A program made the translations under genes and the position numbers. From NCBI GenBank assembly GCA_963377175.1, contig CAUJNA010003816.1, positions 587,501 to 651,500 of the forward strand: DNA of 64,000 nt. Reading direction: 5' to 3'. Position 1 is the first letter of the stretch; each line of letters opens with the position of its first letter. Below are positions 40,520 through 62,247 of this stretch, piece by piece. Under the pieces are notes generated by a model that was given only the letters and a program-made list of their open reading frames with translations, did not search any database and had not been told where the DNA came from. This DNA is from Effrenium voratum (Eukaryota > Sar > Dinophyceae > Suessiales > Symbiodiniaceae).

Positions 40520-40550
40520 GCGGCGCAGGCGGATCTTTCCGAAACGTCGC
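40520..40550 (+). promoter_or_regulatory. Conserved 3' stem-loop H1
   Basis: Outer stem GCGGCG/CGTCGC (one G-T pair) around AGGCGGATCTTTCCGAA, which has an inner CGGA/TCCG stem. Starts 20 nt after the J-domain stop. A partial second copy (GCGGCGCAGGCGGATTTTTT) follows at about 40,593. Confidence 0.65.
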
Positions 40551-40689
40551 CGACTGGCTCTGCATTCCACAGCTCCTGGACCTTCCGGTCTGTGCGGCGC
40601 AGGCGGATTTTTTTCCCTGGCGTCCTTGAAGTTGCTGGCGCTGCCAGGGCTTTCTGCCGCACACGATTGCTGCCGACAAAAAATGTGCA

Positions 40690-40763
40690 TTATGAGTGTC
40701 TCAGTAGCGGAGCTTGCCCAGAGCAAGTTTGCGGCGACAGTTGATTAGGGCGACACGGCTTCT
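40690..40763. repeat. 75-bp direct repeat, downstream copy
   Basis: Near-identical to 39,728-39,802, spaced about 961 bp away, so the J-domain gene is bracketed by this repeat. Confidence 0.8.
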
Positions 40764-40989
40764 TTGTGTTGGTGCTATGCTTCATTTTTTGGAGGGGTGC
40801 TCCATGAGGTTGCTGTCGCTTGTCACTGCTGCTTGCACGTGCATTCATGCTCAAGGCAGTCCTCCGTGTTAGTGCTGTAGAAGGTGTCATCGCTCAGATC
40901 GCATCTTCCGAAGTGCGGATTCGTTTCCTTGGCGCACCAATCTTGTCAAAGCAGTTACACACAGCGGGTGGCCAGAAGATATCAGAGTC

Positions 40990-41024
40990 GCGCGGCGCTG
41001 GCGGGTATTTCCGACGTGTCGTGT
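40990..41024 (+). promoter_or_regulatory. Conserved stem-loop H2
   Basis: Loop segment TGGCGGGTATTTCCGAC within arms GCGGCGC/GTGTCGT that pair with three G-T wobbles, extendable by two pairs. No intact gene immediately upstream. Its right half (TTCCGACGTGTCG) is copied at 41,441, 41,866 and 42,300 without the left arm. Confidence 0.5.
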
Positions 41025-41162
41025 TGCCATGTCGCATTCTGGTCGCCAGCGACGTGCGCAGGCTGGACGTTGGCATGCGAGAGCGCACGATTGTTTCGCA
41101 TACCCCTCTTGGTTTTTGGAATTACCACTTTTGGCTTGCGCTGTTGGTTTCCACCGTGCGTC

Positions 41163-41430
41163 TTTCAGCGCGCGCAGCAGGCTGCGAATCCATTGGATGC
41201 TCTTCCTGATGCTGAGCATTTACGGGCTGAAGCAGCAGTACATGGTCAAGACTGGCTCCATGCTGAGCTGGATGGCTCGATGAAGCTGGACAAGCTTCGT
41301 TCCTTCGCAGCTGGCCTCGGCGTGCAGCAAAAGGATCCCGCATCTGGTAGTCGGCTTTCCAAGAGCCAGCTGCTTGAAGCCGTGGTTTGCAGCATACTAC
41401 GTTCGCACAGACCTGACACAGAGCATGGGT
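41163..41430 (+). pseudogene. SAP-like module 1
   Basis: Encodes LPDAEHLRAEAAVHGQDWLH, then DGSMKLDKLRSFAAGLGVQQ, then a SKSQLLEAVV end. The helix-(LGV)-Gly-K-xx-LL-helix pattern resembles SAP-type DNA-binding modules. End is altered (VCSILRSHRPDTEHGF) relative to other copies by small indels. Confidence 0.55.
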
Positions 41431-41594
41431 TTTTCGCAGTTTCCGACGTGTCGTGTTGCCATGTCGCATTCTGGTCGCCAGCGACGTGCGCAGGCTGGAC
41501 GTTGGCATGCGAGAGCGCACGATTGTTTCGCATACCCCTCTTGGTTTCTTGGAATTACCACTTTTGGCTTGCGCTGTTGGTTTCCACCGTGCGT

Positions 41595-41860
41595 CTTTCT
41601 GCGCGCGCAGCAGGCTGCGAATCCTTTGGATGCTCTTCCTGATGCTGAGCATTTACGGGCTGAAGCAGCAGTACATGGTCAAGACTGGCTCCATGCTGAG
41701 CTGTATGGCTCGATGAAGCTGGACAAGCTTCGTGCCTTCGCCGCTGGCCTCGGCGTGCAGCAAAAGGATCCCGCATCTGGTAGTCGGCTTTCCAAGAGCC
41801 AGCTGCTTGAAGCCGTGGTTGCAGCTCTACGTTCGCGACCTGACACAGAGGCATGGTTTC
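41595..41860 (+). pseudogene. SAP-like module 2
   Basis: Same module as at 41,163 with one change (ELYGSMKLDKLRAF), open to ALRSRPDTEAWFRS. The coding end runs directly into the right half of hairpin H2, so it lacks the normal SYK-stop terminus. Confidence 0.55.
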
Positions 41861-42029
41861 GCAGTTTCCGACGTGTCGTGTTGCCATGTCGCATTCTGGC
41901 CGCCAAGCGACGTGCTCTTCCAGACTGGACTTGGCATGCGAGAGCGCACGGATTGTTTTCGCATACCCCTCTGGTTTCTTGGAATAACCACTTTTGGCTT
42001 GCGCGTTGGTTTCCCACCGTGCGTTCTTT

Positions 42030-42295
42030 CAGCGCGCGCACAGGCTGCGAATCTGTGGATGCACTTCCTGATGCGGGAGCATTTGTACGGTCTGAAGCAG
42101 CAAGTAACATGGTCAAGACTGGCTCCATGCTGAGCTGGATGGCTCGATGAAGCTGGACAAGCTTCGTGCCTTCGCCGCTGGCCTCGGCGTGCAGCAAATG
42201 GATCCCGCATCTGGTAGTCGGCTTTCCAAGAGCCAGCTGCTTGAAGCCGTGGTTGCAGCTCTACGTTCGCGACCTGACACAGAGGCATGGTTTCG
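42030..42295 (+). pseudogene. SAP-like module 3, frame-broken
   Basis: Several single-base insertions in the first half (near 41,900-42,120) break the frame; the second half MKLDKLRAFAAGLGVQQMDP to TEAWFRS is intact. Confidence 0.55.
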
Positions 42296-42454
42296 CAGTT
42301 TCCGACGTGTCGTGTTGCCATGTCGCATTCTGGTCGCCAGCGACGTGCGCAGGCTGGACGTTGGCATGCGAGAGCGCACGATTGTTTCTCATACCCCTCT
42401 TGGTTTCTTGGAATTACCACTTTTGGCTTGCGCTGTTGGTTTCCACCGTGCGTC

Positions 42455-42734
42455 TTTCAGCGCGCGCAGCAGGCTGCGAATCCTTTGGATGCTCTTCCTG
42501 ATGCTGAGCATTTACGGGCTGAAGCAGCAGTACATGGTCAAGACTGCTCCATGCTGCAAGTCAAGGACCCCAAGGGAAGCTGGACAAGCTCGGCCATCGC
42601 AGCCTGGCCTCGGCGTGCAGCAAAAGGATCCCGCATCTGGTAGTCGGCTTTCCAAGAGCCAGCTGCTTGAAGCCGTGGTTGCAGCTCTACGTTCGCGACA
42701 TGACACAGAGGCATGGTTTCGCAGTTACAAGTAG
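42455..42734 (+). pseudogene. SAP-like module 4, frame-broken, with normal stop
   Basis: First half diverges after HGQDCSMLQVKDPKGSWT; second half LGVQQKDPASGSRLSKSQ to AWFRSYK and TAG at 42,732-42,734 is normal. Followed by a 3' flank (ACCCCACAAGTTTATTTTTA) also found after modules 6 and at 44,720. Confidence 0.55.
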
Positions 42735-42945
42735 ACCCCACAAGTTTATTTTTATTGCTTAGCTCTTTTTGGCACCCTCAATGCTCAACTCGTTCACGAC
42801 CAGCCTTTAGATACCGCAGCGTGTCTTTCAGCGCGCGTAGCGGACAGAGGAGGGCTTGCTCGAAAGATTGCTTTGGTCATCAGTGTTTCCCTGAATGTAA
42901 GAAGCTGGTCGCCTTACTCTTTTGTGCGTGTTCAAGAACTATGTG

Positions 42946-43692
42946 ATAAGAGCGCAGGCAACTTCGTCTTCCACAGCTGCTGCGAGTTCTGGGCATGGTC
43001 TTCCCGATGCGCAGCACTTGCGAGCCGAAGCAGAAGCACGAGGTTCTGACTGGCTCCGGGCCGAGCTGGATGGCTCCATGACGGCGTCAAGGCTTCGCTC
43101 CTTTGGAGCCGGCCTAGGCGTTTCGCAGAGGGACCCCACGTCTGGCCAGCAGCGCACCAAGGGCCAGCTGCTTGCTGTCTTGGTCGAATCTCTGTGTCCT
43201 CCTTCCAGCGCAGAGGCATGGTTGTCCAAAGCGCTTGTTTCTTGTCAACAGTGTTCGCACGAACAGAGGATTGCTCGAAAGAATGTTTTTGTCAACAGTG
43301 TTTCCCTGAATGTAAGAAGCTGGTCGCCTTGCTCTTTGTGCGTGTGTAAGAACTATGTTGTAAGAGCGCAGGCAACTTCGTCTTCCACAGCTGCTGCGAG
43401 TTCTGGGGATGGCTTTCAGCGCGCGCAGCAGGCTGCGAATCCTTTGGATGCTCTTCCTGATGCTGAGCATTTACGGGCTGAAGCAGCAGTACATGGTCAA
43501 GACTGGCTCCATGCTGAGCTGGATGGCTCGATGAAGCTGGACAAGCTTCGTGCCTTCGCAGCTGGCCTCGGCGTGCAGCAAAAGGATCCCGCATCTGGTA
43601 GTCGGCTTTCCAAGAGCCAGCTGCTTGAAGCCGTGGTTGCAGCTCTACGTTCGCGACCTGACACAGAGGCATGGTTTCGCAGTTACAAGTAG
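42946..43692 (+). CDS. Two-module SAP-like protein, tandem copy 1 (modules 5 and 6)
   Basis: Module 5 (LPDAQHLRAEAEARGSDWLR, DGSMTASRLRSFGAGLGVSQ, TKGQLLAVLVESL) and module 6 (LDALPDAEHLRAEAAVHGQD to AWFRSYK, TAG at 43,690-43,692) each span about 80 residues: three or four helices with a Gly turn and a conserved K-x-QLL helix, like SAP modules that bind DNA. The interval 43,236-43,385 between them stays open but looks intronic (ends GTAAGAGCGCAG|GCAACT, the same sequence that precedes module 5). The real start is upstream and not fixed. The whole unit of 958 bp is repeated in the next copy. Confidence 0.6.
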   Translation: MRAQATSSSTAAASSGHGLPDAQHLRAEAEARGSDWLRAELDGSMTASRLRSFGAGLGVSQRDPTSGQQRTKGQLLAVLVESLCPPSSAEAWLSKALVSCQQCSHEQRIARKNVFVNSVSLNVRSWSPCSLCVCKNYVVRAQATSSSTAAASSGDGFQRAQQAANPLDALPDAEHLRAEAAVHGQDWLHAELDGSMKLDKLRAFAAGLGVQQKDPASGSRLSKSQLLEAVVAALRSRPDTEAWFRSYK

Positions 43693-43903
43693 ACCCCACA
43701 AGTTTATTTTTATTGCTTAGCTCTTTTTGGCACCCTCAATGCTCAACTCGTTCACGACCAGCCTTTAGATACCGCAGCGTGTCTTTCAGCGCGCGTAGCG
43801 GACAGAGGAGGGCTTGCTCGAAAGATTGCTTTGGTCAACAGTGTTTCCCTGAATGTAAGAAGCTGGTCGCCTTACTCTTTTGTGCGTGTTCAAGAACTAT
43901 GTG

Positions 43904-44647
43904 ATAAGAGCGCAGGCAACTTCGTCTTCCACAGCTGCTGCGAGTTCTGGGCATGGTCTTCCCGATGCACAGCACTTGCGAGCCGAAGCAGAAGCACGAG
44001 GTTCTGACTGGCTCCGGGCCGAGCTGGATGGCTCCATGACGTCGTCAAGGCTTCGCTCCTTTGGAGCCGTCCTAGGCGTTTCGCAGAGGGACCCCACGTC
44101 TGGCCAGCAGCGCACCAAGGGCCAGCTGCTTGCTGTCTTGGTCGAATCTCTGTGTCCTCCTTCCCGCGCAGAGGCATGGTTTTCCAAAGCGCTTGTTTCT
44201 TGTCAACAGTGTTCGCACGAACAGAGGATTGCTCGAAAGAATGTTTTTGTCAACAGTGTTTCCCTGAATGTAAGAAGCTGGTCGCCTTGCTCTTTGTGCG
44301 TGTGTAAGAACTATGTTGTAAGAGCGCAGGCAACTTCGTCTTCCACAGCTGCTGCAAGTTCTGGGGATGGCCTTCCTGACGCAGAGCATTTACGGGCTGA
44401 AGCAGTTGCGCGTGGCGAGGAATGGCTGCGGTCCGAGCTGGAAAGCTCAATGCCGCGGGGCCAGCTTCGCTCCTTTGCAGCTGGCTTGGATGTTCCCCAG
44501 AGGGATCCCACCACTGGACAGCAGCTCGCCAAGGGTCAGCTGCTTGATGCTTTGGTGGCAGCTTTGCGCCCTTCCGCCATCTCAGAGGCATGGTGTCGCT
44601 TTTGGAAATATACCGCCGAATTGTGGGGATGTTTGAACTGTGTGTAG
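43904..44647 (+). CDS. Two-module SAP-like protein, tandem copy 2 (modules 7 and 8)
   Basis: Near-identical to copy 1 through module 7 (DGSMTSSRLRSFGAVLGVSQ), but module 8 is a different version (LPDAEHLRAEAVARGEEWLR, SSMPRGQLRSFAAGLDVPQR, AKGQLLDALVAAL) ending in AWCRFWKYTAELWGCLNCV and TAG. The usual AWFRSYK-TAG end is found separately at 44,700-44,721, so the end of this copy has been displaced by an insertion of about 100 nt. Function as for copy 1 is inferred only from the module's resemblance to SAP. Confidence 0.6.
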   Translation: MRAQATSSSTAAASSGHGLPDAQHLRAEAEARGSDWLRAELDGSMTSSRLRSFGAVLGVSQRDPTSGQQRTKGQLLAVLVESLCPPSRAEAWFSKALVSCQQCSHEQRIARKNVFVNSVSLNVRSWSPCSLCVCKNYVVRAQATSSSTAAASSGDGLPDAEHLRAEAVARGEEWLRSELESSMPRGQLRSFAAGLDVPQRDPTTGQQLAKGQLLDALVAALRPSAISEAWCRFWKYTAELWGCLNCV

Positions 44648-44649
44648 AT

Positions 44650-45094
44650 GGCTTGTTTATTTCCATGGTGCTGCGTACCTTCCCGACCTGACGCAGAGGC
44701 CTGGTTTCGCAGCTACAAGTAGACCCCACAAGTTTGGTTTTATTGCTTAGCTCTTTTGGCACCCTCAATGCGCAACTTGTTCACGACAAGCCTTGAGATA
44801 CCGGAGCGTGTCTTTCAGCGCGCGTAGCGGACAGAGGAGGGCTTGCTCGAAAGAATGTTTTTGTCAACAGTGTTTCCCTGAATGTAAGAGGCTGGTCGCC
44901 TTACTCTGGGATTGCGCACAGACATCTTTTACAGGGCTAGCAGCTGCAGCTCATCTTAGAAGTCCTAGAACATCATCAAATTTCACAGGCCTAGCATCAT
45001 GTTGGCTAATCTCAGCCTGAGGCAAGGTTTTCTTTAGTTTCGGTCTATCAGTTGTGGTAGGCTGCGTCAGCGGCTGGCCGTGATGTTCTTGCAG
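44650..45094. other. No gene seen
   Basis: Holds the displaced SYK-stop terminus of the module gene (44,700-44,721), its repeated 3' flank to about 44,905, and unique sequence to the start of the helicase-type gene. No further exon recognised. Confidence 0.6.
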
Positions 45095-45500
45095 ACGACG
45101 CTTTCCCTGAGCGCGGCTGGCGTTGGATCTGGTCATGCGTGCGGTCCGACCGCGCTGGTCTGCCAGTTGATGCTGCGCTGCTCGAGACTGAGCTGCCCTC
45201 CAAGCAGCGTCGCGCCAGTCTTTTGGCTTGGCTCTTAGGGATGGCAGAAGATCGCTTGGCGGGTCGCCACTGCAGCGAGGCACAGATCAAGCAGCAGATC
45301 ATCGCATGGACGACGCCGTGTTTATCGGCCTTTGGTGAGTTTGATGCATCGTTGCCTCGCGCTGGCAAAGATGTAACTGCAGTTCCTGGCAGTGTGGATT
45401 TGCAGCCAGTTGAGGCTCTGGCAAGGCACTTGCAGGTTGCACTCATTGCGTGTGCCCTGGAGCGTGATCCAAGCACGGGTCGAGGCGTCTGCTCGATGTC
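45095..45500 (+). CDS. Helicase-type gene, N-terminal exon
   Basis: After TTCTTGCAG|ACGACG the frame reads DDAFPERGWRWIWSCVRSDR, then GLPVDAALLETELPSKQRRA and on to RHLQVALIACALERDPSTGR. Helical, no recognised domain. An intron of about 115 nt with a T-rich tract follows, ending GTTGCAG|GGTGGCG at 45,621. Confidence 0.5.
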
Positions 45501-45621
45501 TAACATTTTTGTGCATTCCTTGTCTTTGTTTTTGTGTTTTTTTTTTGGTGTTTCTTTTCTTTCTTCCGTGGCTATTGCTGCGATATACATGCGGAAGTGT
45601 TGCGTTGCCCACAGTTGCAGG

Positions 45622-46096
45622 GTGGCGAAAACTCCTGGACTTTAGCGAGAACGCGGGAGTCTACGACGTGGCTCAAAGGCTGCTGGATTTGTTGACTCTG
45701 CGGGTGGCCTGCTCGTGGATGGAGCCCTGCGGCTTTGAAGATCAAGCTGACATGATTGAGGCAGTGCTTGTGATCTTGTGGGGCAGGAAGGCATTGGTGC
45801 TGCATGAGCATGAGCTTCGTCAGCGCAGGGGCGCTTTGGATCCAGGCGACATGGTATACTTGCGTTGCTTGATGAGGAAGTACGGCTGGGAGCGCCGCAG
45901 CAATGCCGACAGTCCGTGCTTGTGGCAAGAAGTGTTTCCCAAAGCGGACTATGTCGCTTTTGCATGGTTCTTGTTGCAAGAGTTGCTGCATCCACGCAGC
46001 GCGACTGAGCTCACCACTTTGCGTGTGCTTCACCAGCCTGCAGCGGTTGCCGCGGAGCGTGCGAGCAGGAGAACCGTTTTGCGCACAGTCTCTAGT
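45622..46096 (+). CDS. Helicase-type gene, second exon
   Basis: Reads WRKLLDFSENAGVYDVAQRL through YLRCLMRKYGWERRSNADSP to AERASRRTVLRTVSS. Ends at TCTAGT|GTAGTA; a 60-nt intron (46,097-46,156) closes with GTTGCAG|GAGGGG. Function of this part unknown. Confidence 0.55.
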
Positions 46097-46156
46097 GTAG
46101 TATGCATTTGCACGCTTTCTTTGTTACTTGCCTAAGCTCAGCGCGCTGCGTTGCAG

Positions 46157-46857
46157 GAGGGGCATCCATCCCGATGTTCTTCGCGTGCATGAAGAACTAC
46201 GGCAATGGCAGGATGAAAACGACGCAGTCACCATTCCTTCAGAGGGCGATTCCAGGGAGCTCGCTTACGAGTGCAAGCGTATCTGCGACAAGCTAGCAAG
46301 CAGCGCGTTCGTGCACTGAGGAAAGCGTATCCTCCTGACGTGGAGTTTATTTCTGCTTTGCATATTGACTGTCTGCAGTCTGGCGACGACTTTCAAGATG
46401 GTGTTCTTTGGAGATCTCACGCAGAAAGAAATCTGTTTTTGGATGTTCGCGGCTGGCCTGAAGCTAGCAGTAAGACACGGCTATTCCATCCGCTGACTGA
46501 TATCTTAAAGTTTGAAGACGACAGCTGCGTCAGGGATTGCCTCTCCTTGTTGCAGACCACCGGCGCGGGCCTGGACGCCAAATTACGCCGCGCGGCTCAT
46601 TTACTGGACTGCACTCCTACTATATCAGGAGTGGGTGAGTCGCTGTCGCGACGTCTGCTTTCTTCTTTTCCTGATGATGCAGAAGAATGCCGCCTTCGCT
46701 ATGCTTGCAGACTCTGTGGCCAGCAGTTCTCCTCCTGGACTTCTTTCAAAGACCACATAGTGTCTGACCATTCTGCTGGCGTGGACTCCTCCATTTCTTT
46801 CATTGAGTATCGAAAGAAGGTCATTGGTTTGTTGGACCATGCAGGACCCGAGGCGCG
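46157..46857 (+). pseudogene. Helicase-type gene, C2H2 zinc-finger exon with frame break
   Basis: Begins RGIHPDVLRVHEELRQWQDE, shifts frame between about 46,265 and 46,318 (SRELAYECKR to QASKQRVRALRKAYPPDVEF), then continues to the finger CRLCGQQFSSWTSFKDHIVS plus DH, a C-x2-C-x12-H-x4-H pattern. Such a finger near the N terminus of Helitron-like proteins is plausible for DNA recognition. The coding part ends near HAGPEAR before a T-rich intron. Confidence 0.6.
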
Positions 46858-46964
46858 CGCATGTGCTTTTTTCCTATAGTTGTCACAGCTGGCTTCGCGT
46901 TTGTTGTATGTGTTTTGATGACGTGTTCTTCGTTAGTGCATACTGCGCTGGTACCTCAGGCCCC

Positions 46965-47730
46965 TTCGATGAGCACGCAGCGCGGGATCATCGCCAACGC
47001 GGACAGCAGACTTCGCGAGCCTGGCGGTCCAGAGCAAGATCGTCATGAGTCTGCCTGTGCTGTCTGCGCCAGGCGTCATTGGGAGGAGGACCTGAAGCCA
47101 TTGCTTCTTTTTCGGGACCCATGCGCCGACGAGCGACAAGGTTCACATTTCGCAGCAGTCACGCCTATGTCGGCTGCTTGGAGTGCAGCGGTACGCGCAT
47201 CGCTGGCCCCACATTGATGTGGATGAGCTGAAGGCTTCTGCTGTGGAGCACCCCTTCCTCAAGGACGAGTTTCTGCTCCTGCACAAGCGACGCATGCCGG
47301 TCGATGTGACGCAGCCCTGCGACGTATGTCGGGACTGCCGTGCTGCGCTGCTGAGCTCCGTGCTTACCCTGCCTCGCTTCAGCCTGGCCAATGATCTATG
47401 GATGGGTAGGCAGATGCAGCCGCTACGGAACTTGGCCGCGGGCACACGCAGGCTGCTGCCCATGATCCGGGCTTGCTTGCAAGTGACAGTTCTGCAGCCG
47501 GCGAACCTGCAGAAGGAGGAGCGACAGCGGGGCTTCGTCGGCAACAGCATCTTCTTGCCACAAGCGCAGCCCAGCGCCATACGGACTACGCTGCCGCCCC
47601 CTGAGTCGGACATGCAGGAGTCCATCCTGTTCGTTCTCGTGGGCCAGAAGAAGGACACACTTGCTAGCTCGGCTTTGCTGTCATGTCCCCGAGACGAGTA
47701 TGACGCTGCCGTGTCCTGTCTACAGCCTGG
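46965..47730 (+). pseudogene. Helicase-type gene, DUF6570-like domain
   Basis: After ACCTCAG|GCCCC: APSMSTQRGIIANADSRLRE then ACAVCARRHWEEDLKPL; a one-base slip in the T run near 47,108 moves to the frame reading GTHAPTSDKVHISQQSRLCR, then LLHKRRMPVDVTQPCDVCRD and LPRFSLANDLWMGR. The paired C-x2-C motifs and ALANDLWxG segment are typical of DUF6570 in large helicase-bearing transposon proteins. The frame ends after DEYDAAVSCL; the next part is in another frame. Confidence 0.65.
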
Positions 47731-48785
47731 GCCGCTGCTTTGCCGATGAGGATTTGGCACGGTTTTGCCAGGGCAAGGTGGATGCTCCGGAAGCTACAGT
47801 GCACGACGGCGACGCCCGTAGCGCGGCAGATGTTTCTGAACGCGCGGGCGTCGCAGTTGTTGCTGCAGCTTCCGGAGCTCAGTCAGCAGCAGCGTCTTCG
47901 TCTGCCACACAGGCGGCGGAGCTGGAGCAATCTGTGGCCAAGAAGCATCGCCATGGCACTGCTGCCTTGAAGCCAAAGACCCGGGGCGACGGCAGCATGC
48001 GTGGCGCACTGGAGCGCATGCTGATTGACATGTTTCGCGACATGCAGGACGTTGGCTTCTACGTCGGCGAGTACGCAGCCAAGAAGTTTGAGATTTCCAG
48101 GAGCTTGCTGCCGGAGCTGTTTGCTGGCGTTCAGCGCTTAGAGGAGTAAGAGCGCGAGAGGCGCAGGGAACATGCCTCAACACTGCTTGCTGAAGACTCT
48201 GCAGATGTTCCCGAAGAGCGCGGCCGCGCATCTACTGTGCAAGAACAAAGGCAGCGCTGCTTGTCGATAATTCGTCGCCTGGCTTTCGGCATGAACAGAT
48301 GCATTTGCAAGTCCAATGGAGAAATGGCGTACCAGCTTCTCTACCAACAGGAGCAGTACGTTAGCTTTGCTGGATACAACATGTTTTTCCGATTCGTGCC
48401 GTATGCCATCATGCGCTGCCGCGAGGTTGCTTTAAAGGCGGCATCGCTGCGAGCTCCGCACATGCAGGTGGATCCACTGGACGCACCTGAGGAGCCGGAC
48501 TCTGGACCAATGCCCGTGCGGGAGCTGGCTGAACTGAGTGAGTCGGACGAAGAAGGGGGACAGTCTAAGGCATCTGCAAGGCTTCGAGTCGTGCAGTTCA
48601 ACCAGAAAGACGACTACCTACATCGCGGCCGGAACCCTTTACTGCGATGCATGTCCATGGTGATGTATTCTCGCTTTGTGCGCCGCGTTGATCGATCCAA
48701 AGCTGGCAAGCCGGATGGCGTTCGATTTTTCGAGTTTGAGAAGCATTATCCTCACTTCGAGAGTTCCTTGCAGGACCCACGGAGG
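47730..48785 (+). pseudogene. Helicase-type gene, central segment with in-frame TAA
   Basis: Reads GRCFADEDLARFCQGKVDAP, an Ala/Ser linker, then GALERMLIDMFRDMQDVGFY and VGEYAAKKFEISRSLLPELF. TAA at 48,147-48,149 interrupts RLEE-stop-ERERRREHA; the same frame carries on with MNRCICKSNGEMAYQLLYQQ and NMFFRFVPYAIMRCREVALK to HYPHFESSLQDPRR. The GEMxYQLL segment is characteristic of Helitron-like proteins. A 94-nt GT-AG intron (48,786-48,879) follows. Confidence 0.65.
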
Positions 48786-48879
48786 GTTTTTTCTCTTACA
48801 GTTCTTAGTTCTTGCTTTTCTTTATTTTACAGTTCTTCCTTGTTGCTTTTGCTTCGTTGTCGTTTGCATGCGCGGCCAG

Positions 48880-52890: not shown

Positions 52891-52987
52891 TGCAACACGC
52901 GTTTCGCGATCTGCCTCGCTGCTGCCAGACGACATCAGCAGATTGAGCGCTTGCGCTGTCTCCAGGTTTTGCTCTTCGAGGGAAGCC

Positions 52988-53639: not shown

Positions 53640-55215
53640 AGCAATCCGAAGCACAGTTGATGCACTCATCTCGCTGCTATTCTCGCCCTTTGCCGAGTAG
53701 AGCTACCTGCAGAGCAGTACCTATTTTCCGGCTTGACGCGCGGCGGGGCTCTCAAGCACCTGGACATGTGGCACATGTTATTTATGGCTGTTTTATGTTT
53801 TCGTCTTGCTTTGTCGCAATGCTGCTACAAACGCTTTGCGCCCGGGCATGCTTTGCGCCGGGGCTCTGACCTGCTGGCGCGCGAGCCTTGGGCGCTTGCT
53901 CAGAGGGCGCCTTTTCCCTTGGGCATATGCAGTTAGTTACCTGTCACTTGCGCCATGCTGCTCAAGACGCGCTGCTGTCAGAAATTTCAGGACCTTGGGC
54001 ACTCACCTATCCAAGCGCGGAGCTTAGACAGTTTTCGCCTTCAGGTCTTTTCCGCATCGAGTTAAGTGCAGAGCATTTCCTATGCTCTGGTTCTCTGTGT
54101 GGGACACGCGTGCTCGCAGACTCGAAAAGCAGGGGTCTCGGCGCCGTTTGTTTCTTGACTTGCTGGGCGTGCGTGGCTGGGTATGCGCACGCACGTCATT
54201 TGGAAGCGCTTCGAACCTCTTGGCTCGAAAGCCCGAGTTTTTCCCAGCTTGCTCAAGGCACGTCGGACACCTCAGAGGGCGCCTTGCAGTTTTTTCCTTG
54301 GGCATATAAAGTAAGTTACTTGTTATCCGCGCCGTGCTGGCGAAGACACGCTGCTGTCACAAATGTCAGGACCTTGGGCTCTCACGTATCCACGCGCGGG
54401 CCTTAGACAGTTGCTGAGAGTGCACCATTCAGCTTTGTGTGTCTTTCACGCATGTAGTTAGCTGCAGAACATTTCCCGTGCTCTGGTTCTGCGCGTGGGG
54501 CGCTCAGCCATGTCGGACACCTCAGAGGGCACCTTGCAGCTTTTCCTTGGGCATATAGAGTAAGTTACTTGTTGCTTGCGCCATGCTGGCGAAGACACGC
54601 TGTTGTCACAAATATCAGGACCTAGCTGCAGAGCATTTCCTGCGCTCTGGTCTCTGCATGGGACCCTTGAGGTCGCAGACTCGAAAAGCAGGGATCTCGG
54701 TGCCATGTGTTTCTTGACTTGCTGGGCGTGCGTGGTGGGGTATGCGCATGTGCGTCATTTGAAAGCGCTTCGAAGCGCTTGGGTCGAAAGCGCGAGTCTT
54801 TTCCAGCTCGCTCAGCCACGTCGGACGCCTCAGAGGGCACCTCGCAGTTTTTGTTTTATAGAGTAAGTTACCTGTTGCTTGCGCCATGCTGGCCAAGACA
54901 CGCTGTTGTCACAAAGGTCAGGACATGTCAGGACCTTGGGCTCTCACGTATCCACGCGGGGGCCTTAGGCGGCTGCTGAGAGTGGACCATTCAGCTTTGA
55001 GTCTCTTAGACATGTAGTTACCTGCAGAGCATTTCCCGTGCTCTGGGTTCTGTGCATTGGTCCCGTGAGGTCGTGGACTCGAAAGGCGGGGGGTCTGGGC
55101 GGCATTTGTTTCTTGACGTGCTGGGCGTGCATGGTTGGGCATGCGCACGTCAGTTGGACATGCTTCGAAGCTTCTGAGTGGAAAGCACGAGTTTTTTTGC
55201 CCAGCTTGCTCAGCC
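53640..55215. repeat. Four diverged copies of a gene 5' region
   Basis: Blocks TTTCTTGACTTGCTGGGCGT, GCAGAGCATTTCC, GTAAGTTACTTGTTG and CAGGACCTTGGGCTCTCACG recur. Each copy ends in GCTCA..CAYGTCGGACRCCTC: at about 54,260, 54,510, 54,818 and, as the true start codon, 55,216. The first and third have ACG where the others have ATG. No other gene recognised in the interval. Confidence 0.8.
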
Positions 55216-55766
55216 ATGTCGGACGCCTCGAAGCAGCCCGCGTACTCCGGCCTCACTCTGGGGGTTGGGCTTACTCCGGAGGATGCCGACAAGATCTTCG
55301 TGAGCGGGGAGAAGGTGATGCCTCACTGGGGCGGCAGATGGGGGCTCAAGCCGACGCCCGTGGAGGCCACGCGGCGCGCGCGCGGCACATTGTTCTTTTG
55401 CGCGTGCCCACTTCTCGCCTAGCTAATTCGTAACCTTGCGCAATGAGGCTTTGCTGCGGTGCCAGCAGAGCGACTTGGAGCCGGACGCTGACCCGAAGCA
55501 GGCGCGCATCCACGAGATCTCCTTCACGAGTCTTGGCGTGTGCCATTACTTCGCGTCTGGACTGCATAGCTTTTTTTTAGGGTAGAAGGTCTCGAGCATG
55601 GCGCGCGATCGTTGTTTCGAGCGAGCAAGCGCGCAAGGTCAAGGACCAGCTGCAGAACATTGGCGAGGGCTATTTCCGCTTCTACTCCCACTTGGAAAGA
55701 GAAGCTTTCGACTCCACCGGCGAGCTCCTATATGCACTGGCCGCTGACTGCCAGCAAGCCATGTAG
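55216..55766 (+). CDS. Small three-exon protein, function unknown
   Basis: Starts MSDASKQPAYSGLTLGVGLT; exon 1 ends at GTGGAG (55,365). An 82-nt intron 55,366-55,447 begins GC and ends AG; the join gives PVEALLRCQQSDLEPDADPK, then ARIHEISFTSLGVCHYFASG. A second short intron (limits unclear, near 55,530-55,620) leads to SEQARKVKDQLQNIGEGYFR, FYSHLEREAFDSTGELLYAL and AADCQQAM with TAG at 55,764-55,766. Soluble, mostly helical, no signal peptide or membrane segment; no family recognised. Hairpin H5 begins 22 nt after the stop. Four copies of its 5' region lie upstream. Confidence 0.6.
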
Positions 55767-55787
55767 CTCGCAGGCGCGTTTGCTCTC

Positions 55788-55836
55788 CCACCGGCTTGGT
55801 CGCCAGCGGATGTTTCCGGAGCGACCAAGTCGGCGG
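55788..55836 (+). promoter_or_regulatory. Conserved 3' stem-loop H5 (longest stem)
   Basis: Arms CCACCGGCTTGGTCGC and GCGACCAAGTCGGCGG pair at 15 of 16 positions (one G-T, one A-C mismatch) around CAGCGGATGTTTCCGGA. 22 nt after the stop of the three-exon gene. Confidence 0.8.
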
Positions 55837-55839
55837 TGC

Positions 55840-56285
55840 ATTTTTGAAGCGCATCGCGTAGCGCGCGAGCTGAAAAGTGCCGGTGATCAGCAGAAGTCAG
55901 GCAAGCCGCAGTGGTTACCTTGTGCCGCATGTCCGCTGCAGAGCGTGTCAGGAGCTGCGGCCTCTGCCCTGTCCACGCGTTGGCCTCAGACACTCCGGTC
56001 CTGGGCCACGCGTCGCCAGCCACCTTATGCCGCACGCTCGCTGAGTCGTGTCAGGAGCCGCGGCCTCTGCTATGTCCACGCGCGGGCCTTAGATGCTCCG
56101 GCCCTGCATTCTGCGATGGTCGCAAGCACGGGAGGTGTCTCGCGTTGACTCAAGTGTGGCATCCCTGTCACATATTGCGTGCTAGGCTTGGAGGGGTAGA
56201 GATGGCCGCATGAAGCTGGGGAAGTGCGTCTATGACCAGGTTGTTTTTTGTGGATCTGCTTCCTCCTCCTTTTCAGCTTCACAAA
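55840..56285. other. No gene seen; short internal repeat
   Basis: A segment with CCGCA..TCCGCTGCAGAGCGTGTC (55,924) is repeated as CCGCACGCTCGCTGAGTCGT (56,030), each followed by GTCAGGAGC-GCGGCCTCTGC and GTCCACGCG, spacing about 108 bp. No exon recognised before the kinase-like gene. Confidence 0.6.
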
Positions 56286-57241
56286 ATGGAGGTGCTCTCC
56301 CGTTTGATCTCTAAGAAACTCGAGAGCTTCGAGATGGAGGTGCGGGAGAAGGAGTCCACCCAGAACCGCATGCCCCTGTCTGGCGTAGTCAAGATGACTT
56401 TTGCCTCGAGCACTGGCCGCATTGCTCTGGAGGATGAGGTCTGCTTTGTTGGCGAGGGCGCCTTCAAGAGGGTTATGGTGTGCAAGAAGTATCCCCTGGC
56501 TCTCAAGTTCACCTTCAAGGTTGGCGCGGCCAAGCAAAGCTGGCCGCATCATTGCTTGAAGGAGCCAGAGGTGTTCGACCAAGCCTCTACCTGCCATGAC
56601 CTCATGGTCGCCTACTTTGGGGGAGTTTTCTTGGACGGCGACTGGTCGCGTACTCTTCGAGGCTCCGCACGCACGCCGGCAACAGACGTTGGTTCTGTCA
56701 CCATCGCCGAGCGCGCGTGCGAGGTCAGTGAGACCGTGGCCCGCCAGCAGTGGATGCAAGCCTGCACTTCCACGCTGCTTCGACTTCACTTGAAGATGCA
56801 GCTGGGATTGGCTCGTACTGTTTTGGAGTCGTTTCTGCGGGGCTTCACGCCGTGGGACGCGAAGCTGGACAACTTTGGCACTCGACTGTCGGAGGCATGG
56901 GCTATCGGCGCTCAAGCGGAGAGGCGAGCGGACTTTTCCGAAGCTTCCTCGCTTGGGACCGTGTGCCCGGATGACCGCTGGGTCCTCATCGACATTGACC
57001 CTTTTCAGAAGTCGTCGATTCACCACGCCAACCAGCCGGAGGGCTCAAACTTGTGCAAGGTCATGCTCCGGTCCGTGACCCACTTGTCAGCGCTGCTGGA
57101 TCCGCGCAGTGGCTACGCGGCTCACGTGGACCAAAGCTGGAGGATGCCACTGCAAGAAGTCGTTCAGATCTTCAGCGCGGTGTTTTCCAACGAGTCTGAG
57201 CTGAAGTGGACGACCAAGTTCCTTGTCTATAATTTGAAGCT
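56286..57241 (+). CDS. Protein-kinase-like protein, catalytic exon
   Basis: About 318 codons starting MEVLSRLISKKLESFEMEVR. FVGEGAFKRVMVCKKYPLAL resembles a glycine loop followed by the VAIK-type lysine (ALKFTFK). FTPWDAKLDNFGT resembles the HRDxKxxN catalytic loop with the His-Arg replaced by Trp and Ala before the Lys, and WVLIDIDPF sits where DFG would be (DID). So the fold is kinase-like but the signature residues are altered; it may be an atypical or inactive kinase. The exon ends AAGCT|GTCGTG; a 52-nt GT-AG intron (57,242-57,293) follows. Start chosen as the first ATG after a gap with no repeats. Confidence 0.65.
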
Positions 57242-57293
57242 GTCGTGTCGCGCACCAGGTTGCTCATTTGAACTGTTGAGACCATGTCCCCAG

Positions 57294-57650
57294 GCTCAGT
57301 CAGCAGCAAGCTCTTGCCGTGATGCGGGAGCTGCAGACCCGCTTCGACGCCCTTGTGGCAGCCTACCGACCTAGTCCATCTTCGGCACCTTCGCGACCAC
57401 CCGCGACAGTTGAAGCTCCCACAGCGCCCCGTCCCCCTCGCCGCATGACTACATGGGGCGAGACCTTCTGCCAAAAACTCTTGGCACGAAGCCCACTACT
57501 GGCTGTCAAGCTTCGAGTCAAGGAGACAGTGATGAGGGGCCTGGCGCAAGTTGAGCAGTGCCCAAAGCCAAACCGACTTCGTGTCAAGTGGCTCGCTGCG
57601 CCGTTGGAGTTCTTGTCGTTCTGCAGCGAGGTGCAGGACTCCAATGATTT
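57294..57650 (+). CDS. Kinase-like gene, second exon
   Basis: From CCCCAG|GCTCAG: LSQQQALAVMRELQTRFDAL, a Pro/Ser linker, then RRMTTWGETFCQKLLARSPL and WLAAPLEFLSFCSEVQDSND. The coding sense then continues in another frame. Confidence 0.5.
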
Positions 57651-58085
57651 GTCAGGACCACGCCCAGGAAGACGCAGCGCCAACTGCAGCGGCGATTCAT
57701 GCGCGGGAGGTGTGCCACGTGGAAGGCAAGCTCGCTGTGTCAGTCTGGGTGTCACTGGCTGACGCTGCTTGGCCGGCGACTTGCCAGCACTACGTGCAGT
57801 CCTACTGCGCCCGCACTTGCTTGGCGACTTGGTCCACGAAGGAGATGGACGAGTCCCTGGGGCGCCTCCAGGAAGAGTTTACTGTTCGTCCAGATCAAGC
57901 GGGATTTTTTCAGTCCCCGAGCGAGCGGCTGCAGCCCGAAGCGGCCACCAGAGAGCAAAGAGAAATAGATGGCGCGCTGCCATACCAGGCGCGCAAGTCG
58001 GAAGCGCAAGGGTCGACGTGGATACGAAGATGCCCCACCATTCGTGCTCAAGGTGGTTCAGGACTGCGCATGCAGCTTGGTGTGT
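57651..58085 (+). pseudogene. Kinase-like gene, middle segment with frame changes
   Basis: CQDHAQEDAAPTAAAIHARE, then EGKLAVSVWVSLADAAWPAT and STKEMDESLGRLQEEFTVRP in one frame; later SRKRKGRRGYEDAPPFVLKV and VQDCACSLV in a different frame. Either an unrecognised mini-intron or indels lie between about 57,890 and 57,990. Role unknown. Confidence 0.45.
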
Positions 58086-58137
58086 AGGGGATTCTTCGGC
58101 GTTCATGGTTGTTTCGCATAGATTGCTCCGTCGCAGG

Positions 58138-58618
58138 ACATGCTGCGGACGCTGCACAACCTCTTGCCACTGGATCGCCTTTGCTGGAGTGCGCAGGAGA
58201 ACGAGCTCGCGTCGACCCAAGCAGGCGCGAATCCTATGTGGCAGAAAGGCTACGATGGCGCCTTCAAGTTTGCAGGGGGGCGCCGCGGCATGAAACTTTG
58301 CGAGCTCATGCGCGCGGACTGGTTCCGTTCAGAGCCGGACTGCTACGGCCTTCGCTCGGAGTTCATCATAGACGTGTTCCTGGCAATGTTGGCGTGGATG
58401 CGTCCGCATTTTTGTCAGCTTGGCCAACACTCCACCACTGAGGAGCGGCAGAACCACTTTTCGCACCAGCTTCGGTTCTATGGCGTGCAGCTCTCTGACG
58501 CAGAGATGGAGTCTTTGGCGGGCGCTGTGGTGGCTGCGACCTCCGTGAGAGATGTGGGTCTCCAGCTACATTGCCTTGAGAAGACTTGCCGACCCTGCCT
58601 CTGCGGCTTCGCGATGAC
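58138..58618 (+). CDS. Kinase-like gene, last exon
   Basis: After CCGTCGCAG|GACATG: DMLRTLHNLLPLDRLCWSAQ, NPMWQKGYDGAFKFAGGRRG, LCELMRADWFRSEPDCYGLR and a helical end FSHQLRFYGVQLSDAEMESL. A TGA in an alternative frame at 58,616-58,618 (DPASAASR-stop) may be the real end; the main frame stays open into hairpin H6. No family recognised for this part. Confidence 0.5.
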
Positions 58619-58639
58619 TCGCGATGGCAGCACGGAGTT

Positions 58640-58694
58640 GGGATGGACTGGCTTGTGCTGGCGGGCGTTTCCGACGCGCGAGCCAGTCCGCCCC
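58640..58694 (+). promoter_or_regulatory. Conserved 3' stem-loop H6
   Basis: Arms GGACTGGCTTGTGC and GCGCGAGCCAGTCC pair at all 14 positions using two G-T wobbles, with a further GGG/CCC outside, around TGGCGGGCGTTTCCGAC. Lies 27 nt after the probable end of the kinase-like gene. Confidence 0.8.
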
Positions 58695-59414
58695 TGCGCG
58701 GCACAGACATAGGCAGCGCTCTCGCGAAAGCAGTTGCGCACGCGCTGCTTGCGCGCCTCAGGCTGTCAGCGCGAGCGCGATTTGCTGTGCGACTTAGGCC
58801 CGGCGACCCAGGAGAGCCAGGCCTGATCGCTTGCTACAGCTTTGTCACGCTGTGCTTTCATGCTGTCATGGCCCCCCCGATTGCACTTGACTGCTTGCGC
58901 CCATGTCTGCTCGCGCACGAACGGCAGGAGCCACGCAGACTGGATAGCGAGACCTAGGCCGCATCACAGCTTTGTCATACTGCGCCAAGCCTTAGTCAAG
59001 CCAGAGAGCGCCGAGCCACACATACACACAAACACCCACGCACACACATCTAAATAGCTTTGGCTTTGGCTTCCTTTCAGGCTGGTCTCACTTAGGGCTT
59101 CGTGGCAAGGGCTGCGGAGGCGAATGGTCGACCTGCGTTTGCACCTCAGATTTGTGTCAACTCGAGGGCGCTAGCGCTCAGCATGGCCCAGAAGCAGATG
59201 TCGCTGTGCGACTGAGGCTCAACCCATTCTAGGAGACCCAGAAGGCTGAGGCTTGGTTGCTTGCTAGAGCTCAGTAATGCTGTGCACTCATGCTGTCACT
59301 GCCCCCTCGATGTCACTTTACTTCTTTGCCGGGCCTTCACTTGTCTGAGCTGCGCTCGCCAGAGAGCCGCTGGGGCTGACAGTGGTGCGTAAGGAGGCAC
59401 TTGCCATTGCGCTC
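58695..59414. repeat. Intergenic sequence with a diverged repeat pair
   Basis: 58,778-58,890 and 59,190-59,340 are related: GCTGTGCGACT, CTAGGAGA/CCAGGAGA, GCTTGCTA, CTGTG..CTCATGCTGTCA and GGCCCCCCCGAT/TGCCCCCTCGAT occur in the same order. No gene recognised. Confidence 0.65.
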
Positions 59415-60326
59415 ATGGCGCAACCGCTGCTGGACTTCATAGCCTTCAAGTACTTTCGGGACTTCCTGACTCGGCTGGATATGCACTTTGATGATCCTTT
59501 GAGCGTAGATACCGAGTCTGTCAGACAGGCGGTGCGTGAGCGCGTCGCGCGGGCTACAGGGGGCCCTGACGGTGACGATCTTCGACGCCGCTGTGGCATG
59601 TTCCTCAAGTGGCGCGGCTTTCCTGCAGCTAGCCGCCCCCGCGCTCGGTCGCGATCACCCACGGACTCAGCGCCGCCACGACAAGACTTGGCGGAGGAGC
59701 TCGCGGTTGCTCGCGAGCACTTCGTGGACTACATGGAGGACCTCGAACTAACGCAGCACTCCCCTCGCAGCGTGCGTCTGCGCACGGTGGCTGCCGTTTG
59801 CGAGGACCGTCTGAGCTGCATGCACGAGCTCTGCTCCGCGCCCGAGACGAGCGTGTGGCAGACGCCAAGTAGAGAGGCCGTGGCTGGGTGGGGTGCTTTG
59901 CTGGAAAGACATCGCCTCTTCCTTGCCTGGCGCGACATGCTAGGGGCCGCCGAGGATCTTGACGCTGCTGACGGGCCCAGCCAATGGTCTGGAGATGCTG
60001 TGGCCGGCGCGTACGCGTCGGATAGCCGGAGCTCCTGCCGGCCGTCACGGAAGCGGGCCACGTCTCCGTGTCCTGAGAACGCGCACTGCCCGAAGTTCTC
60101 TAAGAGGCACGCAGGCGTCAGCGAGGCGAGAAAGCGGGAGTACCTGTTCCTCTACGCGGCGCACGCTCGATGTCTTACGTGCCTAGAATTTGTGGCCAGC
60201 CAGTCTGACTTCAATGTTGCTTGCAAGTCCGCGGGCAAAAGTGCCCGAGAATGGGCTGTAAGTAAGCCGAACAGTGCAGTCCTCGACGACGAGCTGGATG
60301 CTTTTCTCTGTAGGCACGGCCTGTGA
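59415..60326 (+). CDS. Protein with Cys-rich C-terminal domain shared with the J-domain gene
   Basis: 303 codons from MAQPLLDFIAFKYFRDFLTR; this first ATG is preferred over an upstream GTG. The N-terminal 200 residues are helical with an Arg/Ser-rich stretch (SRPRARSRSPTD). Residues about 220-303 (PCPENAHCPKFSKRH, LFLYAAHARCLTCLEFVASQ, FNVACKSAGKSAREWA, LDDELDAFL) align throughout with the C terminus of the protein at 39,856-40,500: PC-x4-HC-x-KF, LFLYAA-x2-RCLTCL-x-F, C-x-S-x-GK-x-A-x-EWA, LDD-x-L. The J domain is absent here. The domain looks zinc-binding but I know no name for it. Hairpin H7 lies 111 nt after the stop. Confidence 0.75.
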   Translation: MAQPLLDFIAFKYFRDFLTRLDMHFDDPLSVDTESVRQAVRERVARATGGPDGDDLRRRCGMFLKWRGFPAASRPRARSRSPTDSAPPRQDLAEELAVAREHFVDYMEDLELTQHSPRSVRLRTVAAVCEDRLSCMHELCSAPETSVWQTPSREAVAGWGALLERHRLFLAWRDMLGAAEDLDAADGPSQWSGDAVAGAYASDSRSSCRPSRKRATSPCPENAHCPKFSKRHAGVSEARKREYLFLYAAHARCLTCLEFVASQSDFNVACKSAGKSAREWAVSKPNSAVLDDELDAFLCRHGL

Positions 60327-60436
60327 CCGCGCGGGAGGGGGCCAAGATGCAGGCCGAGGCCCTCGAGCAACACGCCCGAAAAGTGTCCAACATGATTGGG
60401 GCGCGGCCTTGGGAGTGAGACGTGTCTAGCACAGAA

Positions 60437-60473
60437 GCGACGGCGCGGGCGGATGTTTCCGAAGCGCTGTCGC
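60437..60473 (+). promoter_or_regulatory. Conserved 3' stem-loop H7
   Basis: Arms GCGACGGCGC/GCGCTGTCGC (ten pairs, one G-T) around GGGCGGATGTTTCCGAA. The 60 nt before it also match the sequence before H8. Confidence 0.8.
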
Positions 60474-60582
60474 ATGAGCAGAAGCTTTCGAAAAACAAAA
60501 GAAGCTCCTCTCGGGAGCCGGTCGTTGCAGCTTGATCTTTCTTAGTTGTTTCTGCAAGTGGGCCGGGTGACCGCTATCGCTG

Positions 60583-60935
60583 AGTCTTGCTAGGCAGTCA
60601 TGCGCGAAAGCTGTCAGGCGGATGAAGCGGCGGCACGCGCCTCAGAGTGTAGCGCATGTTGAGGGCGTGCGCCTTGGTTGTCTGCTCAGTAGACATGCCG
60701 AGAAGCAATCGAGTCAGCACGTGCCGCCACCCGCACGGACATGCATCTCAGTCAGTCATGCTACACCTGGGTCTTGCTAGGCAGTCTTGCGTGAAAAGTC
60801 TCAGGTGGATGGAGCGGCGGCGCGCATCTCAGAGTGCAGCGTTGCGCAGTGATTGAGAGCGTGCATGTTGGTCATGTCTGCTGCGTAGACATGCCGAGAA
60901 GCATTGAATTCCTGTAGCACGGAAAGGCGTCTCAA
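60583..60935. repeat. ~180-bp repeat, two tandem copies
   Basis: TCTTGCTAGGCAGTC, GTGAAA, GGCGGCR-CGCRYCTCAGAGT, GTAGACATGCCGAGAAGCA and CATGCATCTCAGTCAGTCAT recur; copies begin near 60,583 and 60,770. The same unit is found again at 61,660-61,975 on the other side of the next gene. Confidence 0.8.
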
Positions 60936-61015
60936 TGAGTCATGGTATCTGTGCTGCTTGCTACACTCTCAGCACAAAGTCAGTTTCCATTAGGCAACAG
61001 ACCCAGACTGCCCGG

Positions 61016-61405
61016 ATGCCCGCTTTCTGGCTGAAGCAGCCTCTGCTCGGCATGTACCAGGATAAGCTCAAGGACTGCCTCGGCACGGCGGAAGCTGTCC
61101 GGGAGAGACACTGCGCAGGCTGCGGCTCTACCGAGCGATTGTGGCAGACCGAGCCTGGAAGGATCAAATACGAAAAGCTCGGCCTCTGCGAGCCTTGCTG
61201 GGACTGCTTGATGTTGCCGGGAATGTCGGCCCAGAAGCAACTTCGTCAGTGCTCGCTTCTCACCGCAGATGGACTTGCAGTGGCGAAGCATGTGATCTCG
61301 GCATGCATGGGCATGGAGGCTGTTGGTATAGAGCAGGAGTCCGACTTCCGCCACGCCGTGAGCGTGGCTCTCGGCCAAAGGCCCTTAACGTGCCCTCGTC
61401 GCTGA
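61016..61405 (+). CDS. Small putative zinc-binding protein
   Basis: 129 codons from MPAFWLKQPLLGMYQDKLKD; an in-frame ATG at 60,935 would add 27 residues, but a TTAG|GCAACAG acceptor at about 60,993 makes the later start more likely. RHCAGCGSTERLWQTEPGRI then LGLCEPCWDCLM contains CxxC pairs spaced like a zinc finger (Cys at residues about 30, 33, 55, 58, 61). The rest is helical. No family recognised. Hairpin H8 begins 132 nt after the stop, and the flanking 180-bp repeats suggest the gene has been part of a tandem array. Confidence 0.55.
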   Translation: MPAFWLKQPLLGMYQDKLKDCLGTAEAVRERHCAGCGSTERLWQTEPGRIKYEKLGLCEPCWDCLMLPGMSAQKQLRQCSLLTADGLAVAKHVISACMGMEAVGIEQESDFRHAVSVALGQRPLTCPRR

Positions 61406-61536
61406 CCAGGGCTTGGGCGGCGGAAGCAAGCGGCAGCCGCGCTCAGCGGACCCTTGATGTGCTTCTTTTTTAAGGCATAGTTTAAGGCATAGCCTGTGAG
61501 CATGGCCTTGGGATTGAGACATGTTCGAGTGCAGCA

Positions 61537-61573
61537 GCGACGGCGCGGGCGGGCGTTTCCGAAGCGCTGTCGC
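61537..61573 (+). promoter_or_regulatory. Conserved 3' stem-loop H8
   Basis: Arms GCGACGGCGC/GCGCTGTCGC around GGGCGGGCGTTTCCGAA. The inner stem uses a G-T pair (CGGG/TCCG) where H7 has A-T. Confidence 0.8.
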
Positions 61574-61659
61574 ACGAGCAAAGCCCCGCGGGAGTGCGTC
61601 GTTGCCGCCACGTCCCTTGCCCCTTGTTGTTTCGGCGAGCGTGTCGGGCGAATGCCACA

Positions 61660-61975
61660 GCTGGGTCTTGCTAGGCGGTCGTGCGTGAAAGTTATCAGGC
61701 AGATGAAGCGGCGGCGCGCGCCTCAGAGCATAGCGCAGCATAGTGATTGAGGGCGTGTGTCCTGGCCATGTCTGCTTAGTGGGCATGCCAAGAAGCATTC
61801 AAGTCAGCCCGCGCTGCCGCCCGCGCGGACATGCATCTCAGTCAGTCATGCTACACCTGGGTCTTGGTAGGCAGTCATGCGTGAAAGCTGCCAGGCGGAT
61901 GGAGCGGCGGCACGTTCCTCAGAGTATAGCGCAGCGCAGTGGTTGAGGGCGTGCGTGTTGGTCATTGCGCCGACC
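61660..61975. repeat. ~180-bp repeat, copies three and four
   Basis: Same unit as 60,583-60,935: GGGTCTTGCTAGGCGGTCGT at 61,664 and GGGTCTTGGTAGGCAGTCAT at 61,858, each followed by GGCGGCRCG, AGCGCAG and TGCATCTCAGTCAGTCATGC-like blocks. Confidence 0.8.
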
Positions 61976-62086
61976 TGCGTGAATCGACTGCTTGCTTCAT
62001 CTGACCCTCGAGTAGACTTTCTGTTGCAGGCGTGGGGAGAGTTGAGCCAGGCTAAAAGCCACCATTTTTGAGGCGTGGTGCCAAAA

Positions 62087-62221
62087 ATGTTGCGCCTTGC
62101 TTGCACAAACGTGGAGCCATCGACGGAAGTTTGTGATGGCAATGCTCTCGCATGGGGGTTGCTTCTGGAACGTGCGTTGCGTGAACTGGGGCTCGTGCAG
62201 CGACTGGCTCTGGAGACGTAG
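62087..62221 (+). CDS. Small ORF or last exon ending in hairpin H9
   Basis: 44 codons MLRLACTNVEPSTEVCDGNA, LAWGLLLERALRELGLVQRL, ALET and TAG at 62,219-62,221. The helical, coding-like end and the hairpin directly at the stop suggest a real C terminus; whether the ATG is the start or internal to an exon beginning upstream is unclear. Confidence 0.4.
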   Translation: MLRLACTNVEPSTEVCDGNALAWGLLLERALRELGLVQRLALET

Positions 62222-62247
62222 GCGGTGTTTTTCCGAAGCGTCGCAGC
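62210..62247 (+). promoter_or_regulatory. Conserved 3' stem-loop H9, overlapping a stop codon
   Basis: AGGCGGTGTTTTTCCGAA between arms CTGGAGACGT and GCGTCGCAG (GACG/CGTC core, outer pairs interrupted). The stop codon TAG lies at the arm-loop boundary. Most diverged copy, one nt longer in the loop. Confidence 0.5.

Follow-up and report, generated by a model that had tools for sequence, protein, structure and literature searches.

Hairpins of a Helitron-like element in Effrenium voratum

Hairpins that carry a conserved loop on a variable stem occur in rolling-circle replicons and among mRNA stem-loops (the histone stem-loop, for example), and the family described here shares with them a constant apex on a free stem, itself having no Rfam match. 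It lies in a 64,000-nucleotide (nt) stretch of the genome of the dinoflagellate Effrenium voratum (GenBank assembly GCA_963377175.1, contig CAUJNA010003816.1, positions 587,501 to 651,500, forward strand; the whole stretch is referred to as the window), inside a single copy of a mobile element ~31.5 kb long. Among described systems, proto-Helentron-Pi of Phytophthora infestans shares with this element a 5′ TT, a 3′ CTAG, a Rep/helicase gene and several extra genes; it is ~14 kb long compared with 31.5 kb here, and the part of its description available to us mentions no internal hairpin family (PMC4067079). Helentrons and DINE-1 elements, as covered in the same partial text, have subterminal inverted repeats and terminal T runs of variable length in common with it, and differ in that the element here has a 3′ CTAG and that a short 3′ stem-loop was not seen by eye (PMC4067079). 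The Helitron 3′ terminal hairpin is likewise a hairpin of the moved strand, but the portion of the source at hand gives one per element, ~11 nt from the end, whereas here there are about a dozen internal hairpins with a shared apex (PMC4067079).

Within the window, the apex GGCGGRYGTTTCCGA was matched ten times with no more than two mismatches, between positions 40528 and 61562 and always on the plus strand, where 0.43 matches were expected and the largest count in shuffled windows (n = 100) was 3. A sequence-only reading of this DNA had described nine stem-loops with a shared apex; all nine were present near the positions it gave (the ninth, 62221, being the weakest), and two copies absent from its list were added (47825 and 56927). 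The hairpins have a 12-pair outer stem, an internal loop NGG/AM, an inner stem CGGR/UCCG and a loop NNUU. A covariance model (R1) based on an ungapped nine-row alignment of window hairpins gave 11 matches in the window at an expectation value (E) of ≤1, all on the plus strand; 9 of the 11 were the model's training rows, the others being 47803-47860 (E 0.0027) and 62201-62253 (E 0.41). No R1 match at E ≤ 1 was found on the minus strand of the window or on either strand of positions 1-40000, in agreement with the earlier claim that the hairpins occupy one strand only. The hairpins were as follows (ORF, open reading frame):

40508..40562, plus strand: Ha, stem base ~16 nt past the stop codon of the ORF at 39856..40500; single fold no better than shuffles
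40980..41034, plus strand: Hb, followed by tandem units that repeat its 3′ half, starting at the loop; 5′ half deleted in the relative C747
47780..47885, plus strand: Hc, ~95 nt, -71.5 kcal/mol, z -8.65, within the Rep-gene coding linker
52089..52143, plus strand: Hd, after the helicase stop codon
52403..52457, plus strand: He, in the second copy of a 314-bp tandem duplication
55785..55839, plus strand: Hf, upstream of the kinase-like ORF
56907..56961, plus strand: Hg, within the kinase-like ORF
58640..58694, plus strand: Hh, in the element copy C126 31 nt past a 450-aa ORF
60428..60482, plus strand: Hi, after the Cys-rich ORF (59415..60326)
61528..61582, plus strand: Hj, single fold no better than shuffles
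62201..62253, plus strand: Hk, weak (E 0.41), adjoining the start of the next ORF (ATG at 62248)

These copies are partly non-independent: 52109 and 52423 belong to the 314-bp tandem duplication, and flanks common to 60448 and 61548, and to 58660 and 52109, were seen by eye. In copy C126 there were 13 R1 matches, 12 at E below 0.01 (one clipped by the locus end) and one at 0.35; Hk straddles the locus end there and would count as a fourteenth hairpin, and 2 of the 13 fall outside the portion of the element present in the window.

The family is apparently undescribed and new to us. Rfam covariance models gave no match at gathering score in the window and none at E ≤ 1 in 40400-62400. An exact apex scan of viral and prokaryotic sequence returned apparent chance 15-mers (viral_contigs, 53 stretches; prokaryote genome_contigs, at least 120); a loose stem count on these matches (best of nine offsets, 12 pairs) discriminates poorly, with four exact window copies scoring 10 to 12 and six other matches scoring 10. 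The accessible portions of the open-licence literature on dinoflagellate stem-loops, on dinoflagellate and Symbiodiniaceae Helitrons, on Helentrons and on internal Helitron hairpins contained no such hairpins, and a literature search with the motif letters returned pneumococcus papers only.

Support for selection on the folded structure

The sequence-only reading took the conserved apex and compensatory stems as a mark of selection on RNA structure, and the alignments bear out selection on a folded structure. Pairing in the nine-row alignment extends to 89.6% of cells (69.8% when shuffled and at most 50.7% when slid), 10 of 16 pairs are altered on both sides, and the covariation score is 0.601 against 0.213 in shuffles. 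A 24-row alignment that includes relatives gave 85.4% pairing (68.9% shuffled, at most 49.0% slid) and a covariation score of 0.495 against 0.205 (reached in 0 of 500 shuffles). Changes in the inner stem were also matched on the partner side (CAGA/TCTG in Hc, CGAA/TTCG in Hl). In 13 rows chosen from the 24-row family, a hairpin's own arms formed 9.77 of 12 pairs, compared with 6.72 for swapped arms, and G-U pairs outnumbered A-C pairs 22 to 4 (P = 5e-4; raw counts regardless of base composition), which indicates that it is the plus (sense) strand that folds, as RNA or as DNA.

Folding energies pointed the same way. Across 19 hairpins the own-arm mean was -36.3 kcal/mol, against -27.9 kcal/mol over 342 swapped pairs; Hc and its counterpart in the relative C500 reached -48.3 and -53.2 kcal/mol with their own arms and -36.3 and -37.2 kcal/mol when swapped; and ten pairs with 32-nt arms averaged -36.8 own versus -31.4 swapped (hand-averaged, from pairs that are not independent). 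When ten hairpins were folded singly and compared with 200 shuffles each, five were clearly beyond shuffles (47825, with z -8.65; 52109; 55805; 58660; 60448), 56927 was intermediate (z -1.93, 5 of 200 shuffles), and 40528, 41000, 61548 and 62221 were indistinguishable from them (20 to 42 of 200).

Other measures tell against a maintained structure. The number of pairs changed on both sides in the 24-row alignment (11) was equalled in 49 of 500 shuffles, leaving one of five measures on that alignment within shuffle range. In an ungapped 12-pair count over nine close pairs, swapped arms (92 and 87) paired no worse than own arms (97 and 86). When each of the 19 hairpins was combined with 18 swapped partners, 10 had one or more partners as stable as the own arm (six partners each for Hj, C500mod and C22Hb, nine for Hmod, ten for X26), and exchanging arms between Hmod and C500mod costs almost nothing. 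With the arms of X22 and Hg, one swapped combination was more stable than either own pair. In sum, the hairpins themselves are real, and they look maintained by selection on folded structure.

Confinement to one large transposon

To place the family in the genome, a degenerate apex was searched through the 1.156-Gb assembly (3699 contigs), giving 124 exact matches against 28 for a reversed control. Among the 100 matches listed, 88 were on contigs with two to five matches, at spacings mostly like those in the window. Twenty apex matches were sampled from two listings (the first 100 entries of each), non-randomly and mainly as lying outside obvious clusters. Six fell inside element sequence (one of them in C747) and had 8 to 10 of 10 outer pairs, with R1 scores of 33.5 to 60.9 bits; the other 14 lay outside the element and had 1 to 6 of 10 outer pairs, that is, no outer stem, the best of them scoring 18.1 bits. 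The hairpins are thus parts of one large transposon and not a genome-wide 3′-end signal of host genes. The earlier proposal of an mRNA 3′-end signal common to the lineage finds no support in these 14 sampled matches. Its alternative, the tail of a short interspersed nuclear element (SINE), fails: the copies form no short retroposed unit of their own but stand inside an element of 31.5 kb that has ends of its own. The presence of the element in a single orientation also explains the strand bias of the hairpins.

Window positions 38.1 to 64.0 kb are one copy of this element, whose main blocks are ~93 to 99% identical between the window and five other fetched loci; the fetched copies diverge from each other at common ends, which mark its boundaries. 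The element and its main genes in the window were:

38065..64000, plus strand: copy of the proto-Helentron-like element, ~31.5 kb, with left end TTCCCGGAAGCATTGCG at 38065 and right end outside the window
39856..40500, plus strand: ORF ending in a Cys-rich C-terminal domain, with paralogues at 59415-60326 and in C747
46217..52019, plus strand: predicted Helitron-type Rep/helicase exons (C2H2-like, DUF6570, PIF1-like; by Pfam and alignment)
56286..57374, plus strand: kinase-like ORF, so called from motifs seen by eye, without a Pfam match
59415..60326, plus strand: Cys-rich ORF, paralogue of 39856-40500

The left end TTCCCGGAAGCATTGCG was seen in three fetched copies as well as in the window, beginning with TTCCCGG in each, so that a 5′ TT is present, its exact first base blurred by T runs; in the window TTCCCGG is preceded by A, and in the other copies T runs blur the junction, with A, C or G standing before the T run. 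The right end is CCATGCTTCCGGGCCACTCGTCCTCTAG followed by T in five copies, with CTAG in all five. T runs flank the element on both sides, and 11-bp subterminal inverted repeats are present (CCCGGAAGCAT / ATGCTTCCGGG). No 3′ palindrome (16 to 20 nt, ~11 nt from the end) was obvious by eye at the right ends, which were inspected unfolded. Separately, an inverted copy of part of the 3′ terminal stretch lies ~1.7 kb inside the right end (L185, near 3442), and each of the five copies has both orientations of that stretch in its right-end locus; the window copy has a ~160-bp A-rich stretch (62766-62934) that is missing from the five other copies.

A predicted Rep and helicase gene is present: Helitron_like_N was matched in C126 (1.9e-7, Pfam), with DUF6570 at 7.6e-14 and PIF1 at 0.0012, the last under its curated cut-off. 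The window copy lacks ~2.66 kb of the Rep gene at 47726, including the Helitron_like_N part. No Helentron endonuclease turned up among those ORFs that were scanned with Pfam (part of the total), and no search went beyond these scans. The element also encodes a dual-specificity phosphatase and several ORFs without Pfam matches. Its kinase-like ORF matches a partial E. voratum protein at 99% identity across 47% of the ORF length, and the Cys-rich paralogues (two in the window, one in C747) have matching C-terminal ends, the second and third being 40% and 24% identical to the first. In its ends and predicted content the element resembles proto-Helentrons and Helentrons, and it counts as a large representative of a superfamily already known. 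A ~640-aa helicase ~62% identical to that of the element occurs on very many public-assembly contigs (P0012 on 59), and relatives are thus widespread; the helicase part had no match among PDB sequences, and no helicase relative was confirmed in viral_contigs.

Placement of the hairpins relative to genes

Of the 47 C126 ORFs that reach 130 aa, 9 have a hairpin within 150 nt downstream (random mean 2.8; reached in 0 of 2000), and of the 22 that reach 240 aa, 5 do (random mean 1.39, P = 0.01), in a rough test that counted overlapping frames as separate ORFs. From the side of the hairpins, 8 of 13 are no more than 150 nt past an ORF of at least 130 aa, compared with 19% of random places, and the three paralogous Cys-rich ORFs each have one hairpin past the stop codon. 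The placement at gene 3′ ends put forward by the sequence-only reading therefore holds as an association with ORF ends, but not for the copies in the Rep linker, the kinase-like ORF and a probable intron. That association would suit an mRNA 3′-end processing or cleavage signal restricted to the element's own genes; such a signal is very unlikely, because the copies inside genes would truncate them.

Relatives of the element show how far these places are kept. C747 shares parts that are mostly 83 to 92% identical, followed by a diverged cargo block in which hairpins stand at places equivalent by eye to those of C126: before the kinase-like ORF (X21/Hf), inside it (X22/Hg), after the next gene (X24/Hh) and after the Cys-rich ORF (X26/Hi). 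The Cys-rich and kinase-like ORFs showed no third-position excess of changes relative to C747. C500 is a further relative, with 71 to 74% identity in the Rep gene, and its Rep exons do show such an excess. A C500 hairpin (apex 6010) lies between the same two exons as in C126 (13212), in the probable intron, and its coding linker holds a counterpart of Hc (18.0 bits), so that both the intronic and the coding-linker hairpins recur.

Two rearrangements touch Hb. Tandem units of ~430 bp (41440-42740) start in its loop (TTTCCGAC...) and retain only its 3′ half, and in C747 (L202-L204, reverse complement, ~5060) Hb has been lost; the apparent deletion removes 26 nt between TAT repeats, and one of its breakpoints is in the loop. 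The cargo is modular: C126 and C747 have an 877-bp ORF-plus-hairpin unit on opposite sides of the element. This modularity, the tandem units and the deletion break inside the Hb loop would be in keeping with a small palindromic insertion, or with a recombination site marking gene-cassette exchange within the element. Nevertheless, we regard this reading as unlikely: one of six junctions displayed is at a hairpin (Hb only), exchange between hairpins would mismatch their arms, and equivalent places are occupied in C500.

Since several copies are in ORFs, the apex could instead be a peptide motif under protein selection (GCG-GRY-NTT-TCC-GAM, read as A-(D/G)-x-S-(E/D)). Hb, Hc and Hg are in ORFs over 200 aa in that frame, and (A/P/T)(D/E)xSE was seen by eye in the variable linker of seven of nine long-linker Rep homologues (18 aligned rows). 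As an explanation of the family it is the least probable of those weighed here, since in that frame 8 of 11 copies fall in ORFs no longer than 125 aa, and with the paired outer arms and the intronic copy unexplained, although the motif may add constraint in Hc.

A proposed label on transcripts, or a possible fold of the moved strand

A full copy carries about a dozen hairpins, which are internal cis-elements and all lie on the gene-bearing strand. Our preferred reading, tentative and drawn from sequence, is that they would tag the transcripts of the element with a stem-loop to which a putative protein binds. Acting as RNA, the apex on its freely variable outer stem would be recognized by one putative RNA-binding protein, of the element or of the host, which might mark the transcripts for stability, export or translation; the label would work wherever it stands in the transcript, often in the 3′ untranslated region. 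Such a label would account for the sense strand, the ORF association and the tolerance of place.

The main rival, which we consider quite possible though somewhat less probable, is that the hairpins fold in the single-stranded DNA peeled off by a rolling-circle transposase, where they could start second-strand synthesis, load a protein or give protection along a 31-kb strand. Helitrons transpose the plus strand alone, according to the part of the source available to us (PMC6431247), and hairpins on the gene strand only are consistent with this. Sampled stems were found only in a rolling-circle element, and the hairpins are spread across it, whether the place is intron, coding linker or untranslated sequence, so a fold of the moved strand accounts for the restriction to such an element and for the indifference to gene structure. 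It does not predict the association with ORF ends, and no hairpin was found within ~1.8 kb of the right end.

Against a label on transcripts stand several of the placements: Hc and Hg lie inside ORFs that continue on both sides, Hmod (C126 13212) lies between two Rep exons in a probable intron (as judged from ORF ends only), and X21 and X26 at the equivalent places in C747 are weak model matches (E 0.097 and 0.015). Moreover, because genes and moved DNA strand coincide, the strand data cannot separate RNA from single-stranded DNA.

Other features of the window

Outside the element, DIRS-like ORFs (20560-26693, minus strand) were recognized by eye as tyrosine-recombinase-like and reverse-transcriptase-like, in a region that also contains a C-5 cytosine methyltransferase domain (PF00145, 5.7e-6). 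A DIRS-like retroelement with a C-5 cytosine methyltransferase is a known dinoflagellate combination. Near the point where the window turns from minus-strand to plus-strand genes, ~1.5 kb of simple repeats (32739-34300) are open in several frames on both strands. No spliced-leader-like string was found in the window.

Implications

That a giant rolling-circle transposon labels most of its carried genes, cargo included, with one shared hairpin apex is a broader proposal that we rate as rather unlikely as it stands; a shared label would let one protein recognize all transcripts (or all single-stranded DNA) of the element. If true, this would be a case in which a DNA transposon of a eukaryote marks its own genes by means of one structured element common to them. 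The hairpin family offers a marker with which giant Helitron-like elements in dinoflagellates could be found and classified, and it carries a caution for raw dinoflagellate sequence, in which a motif repeated at gene ends can be the mark of one large transposon rather than a signal of the host.

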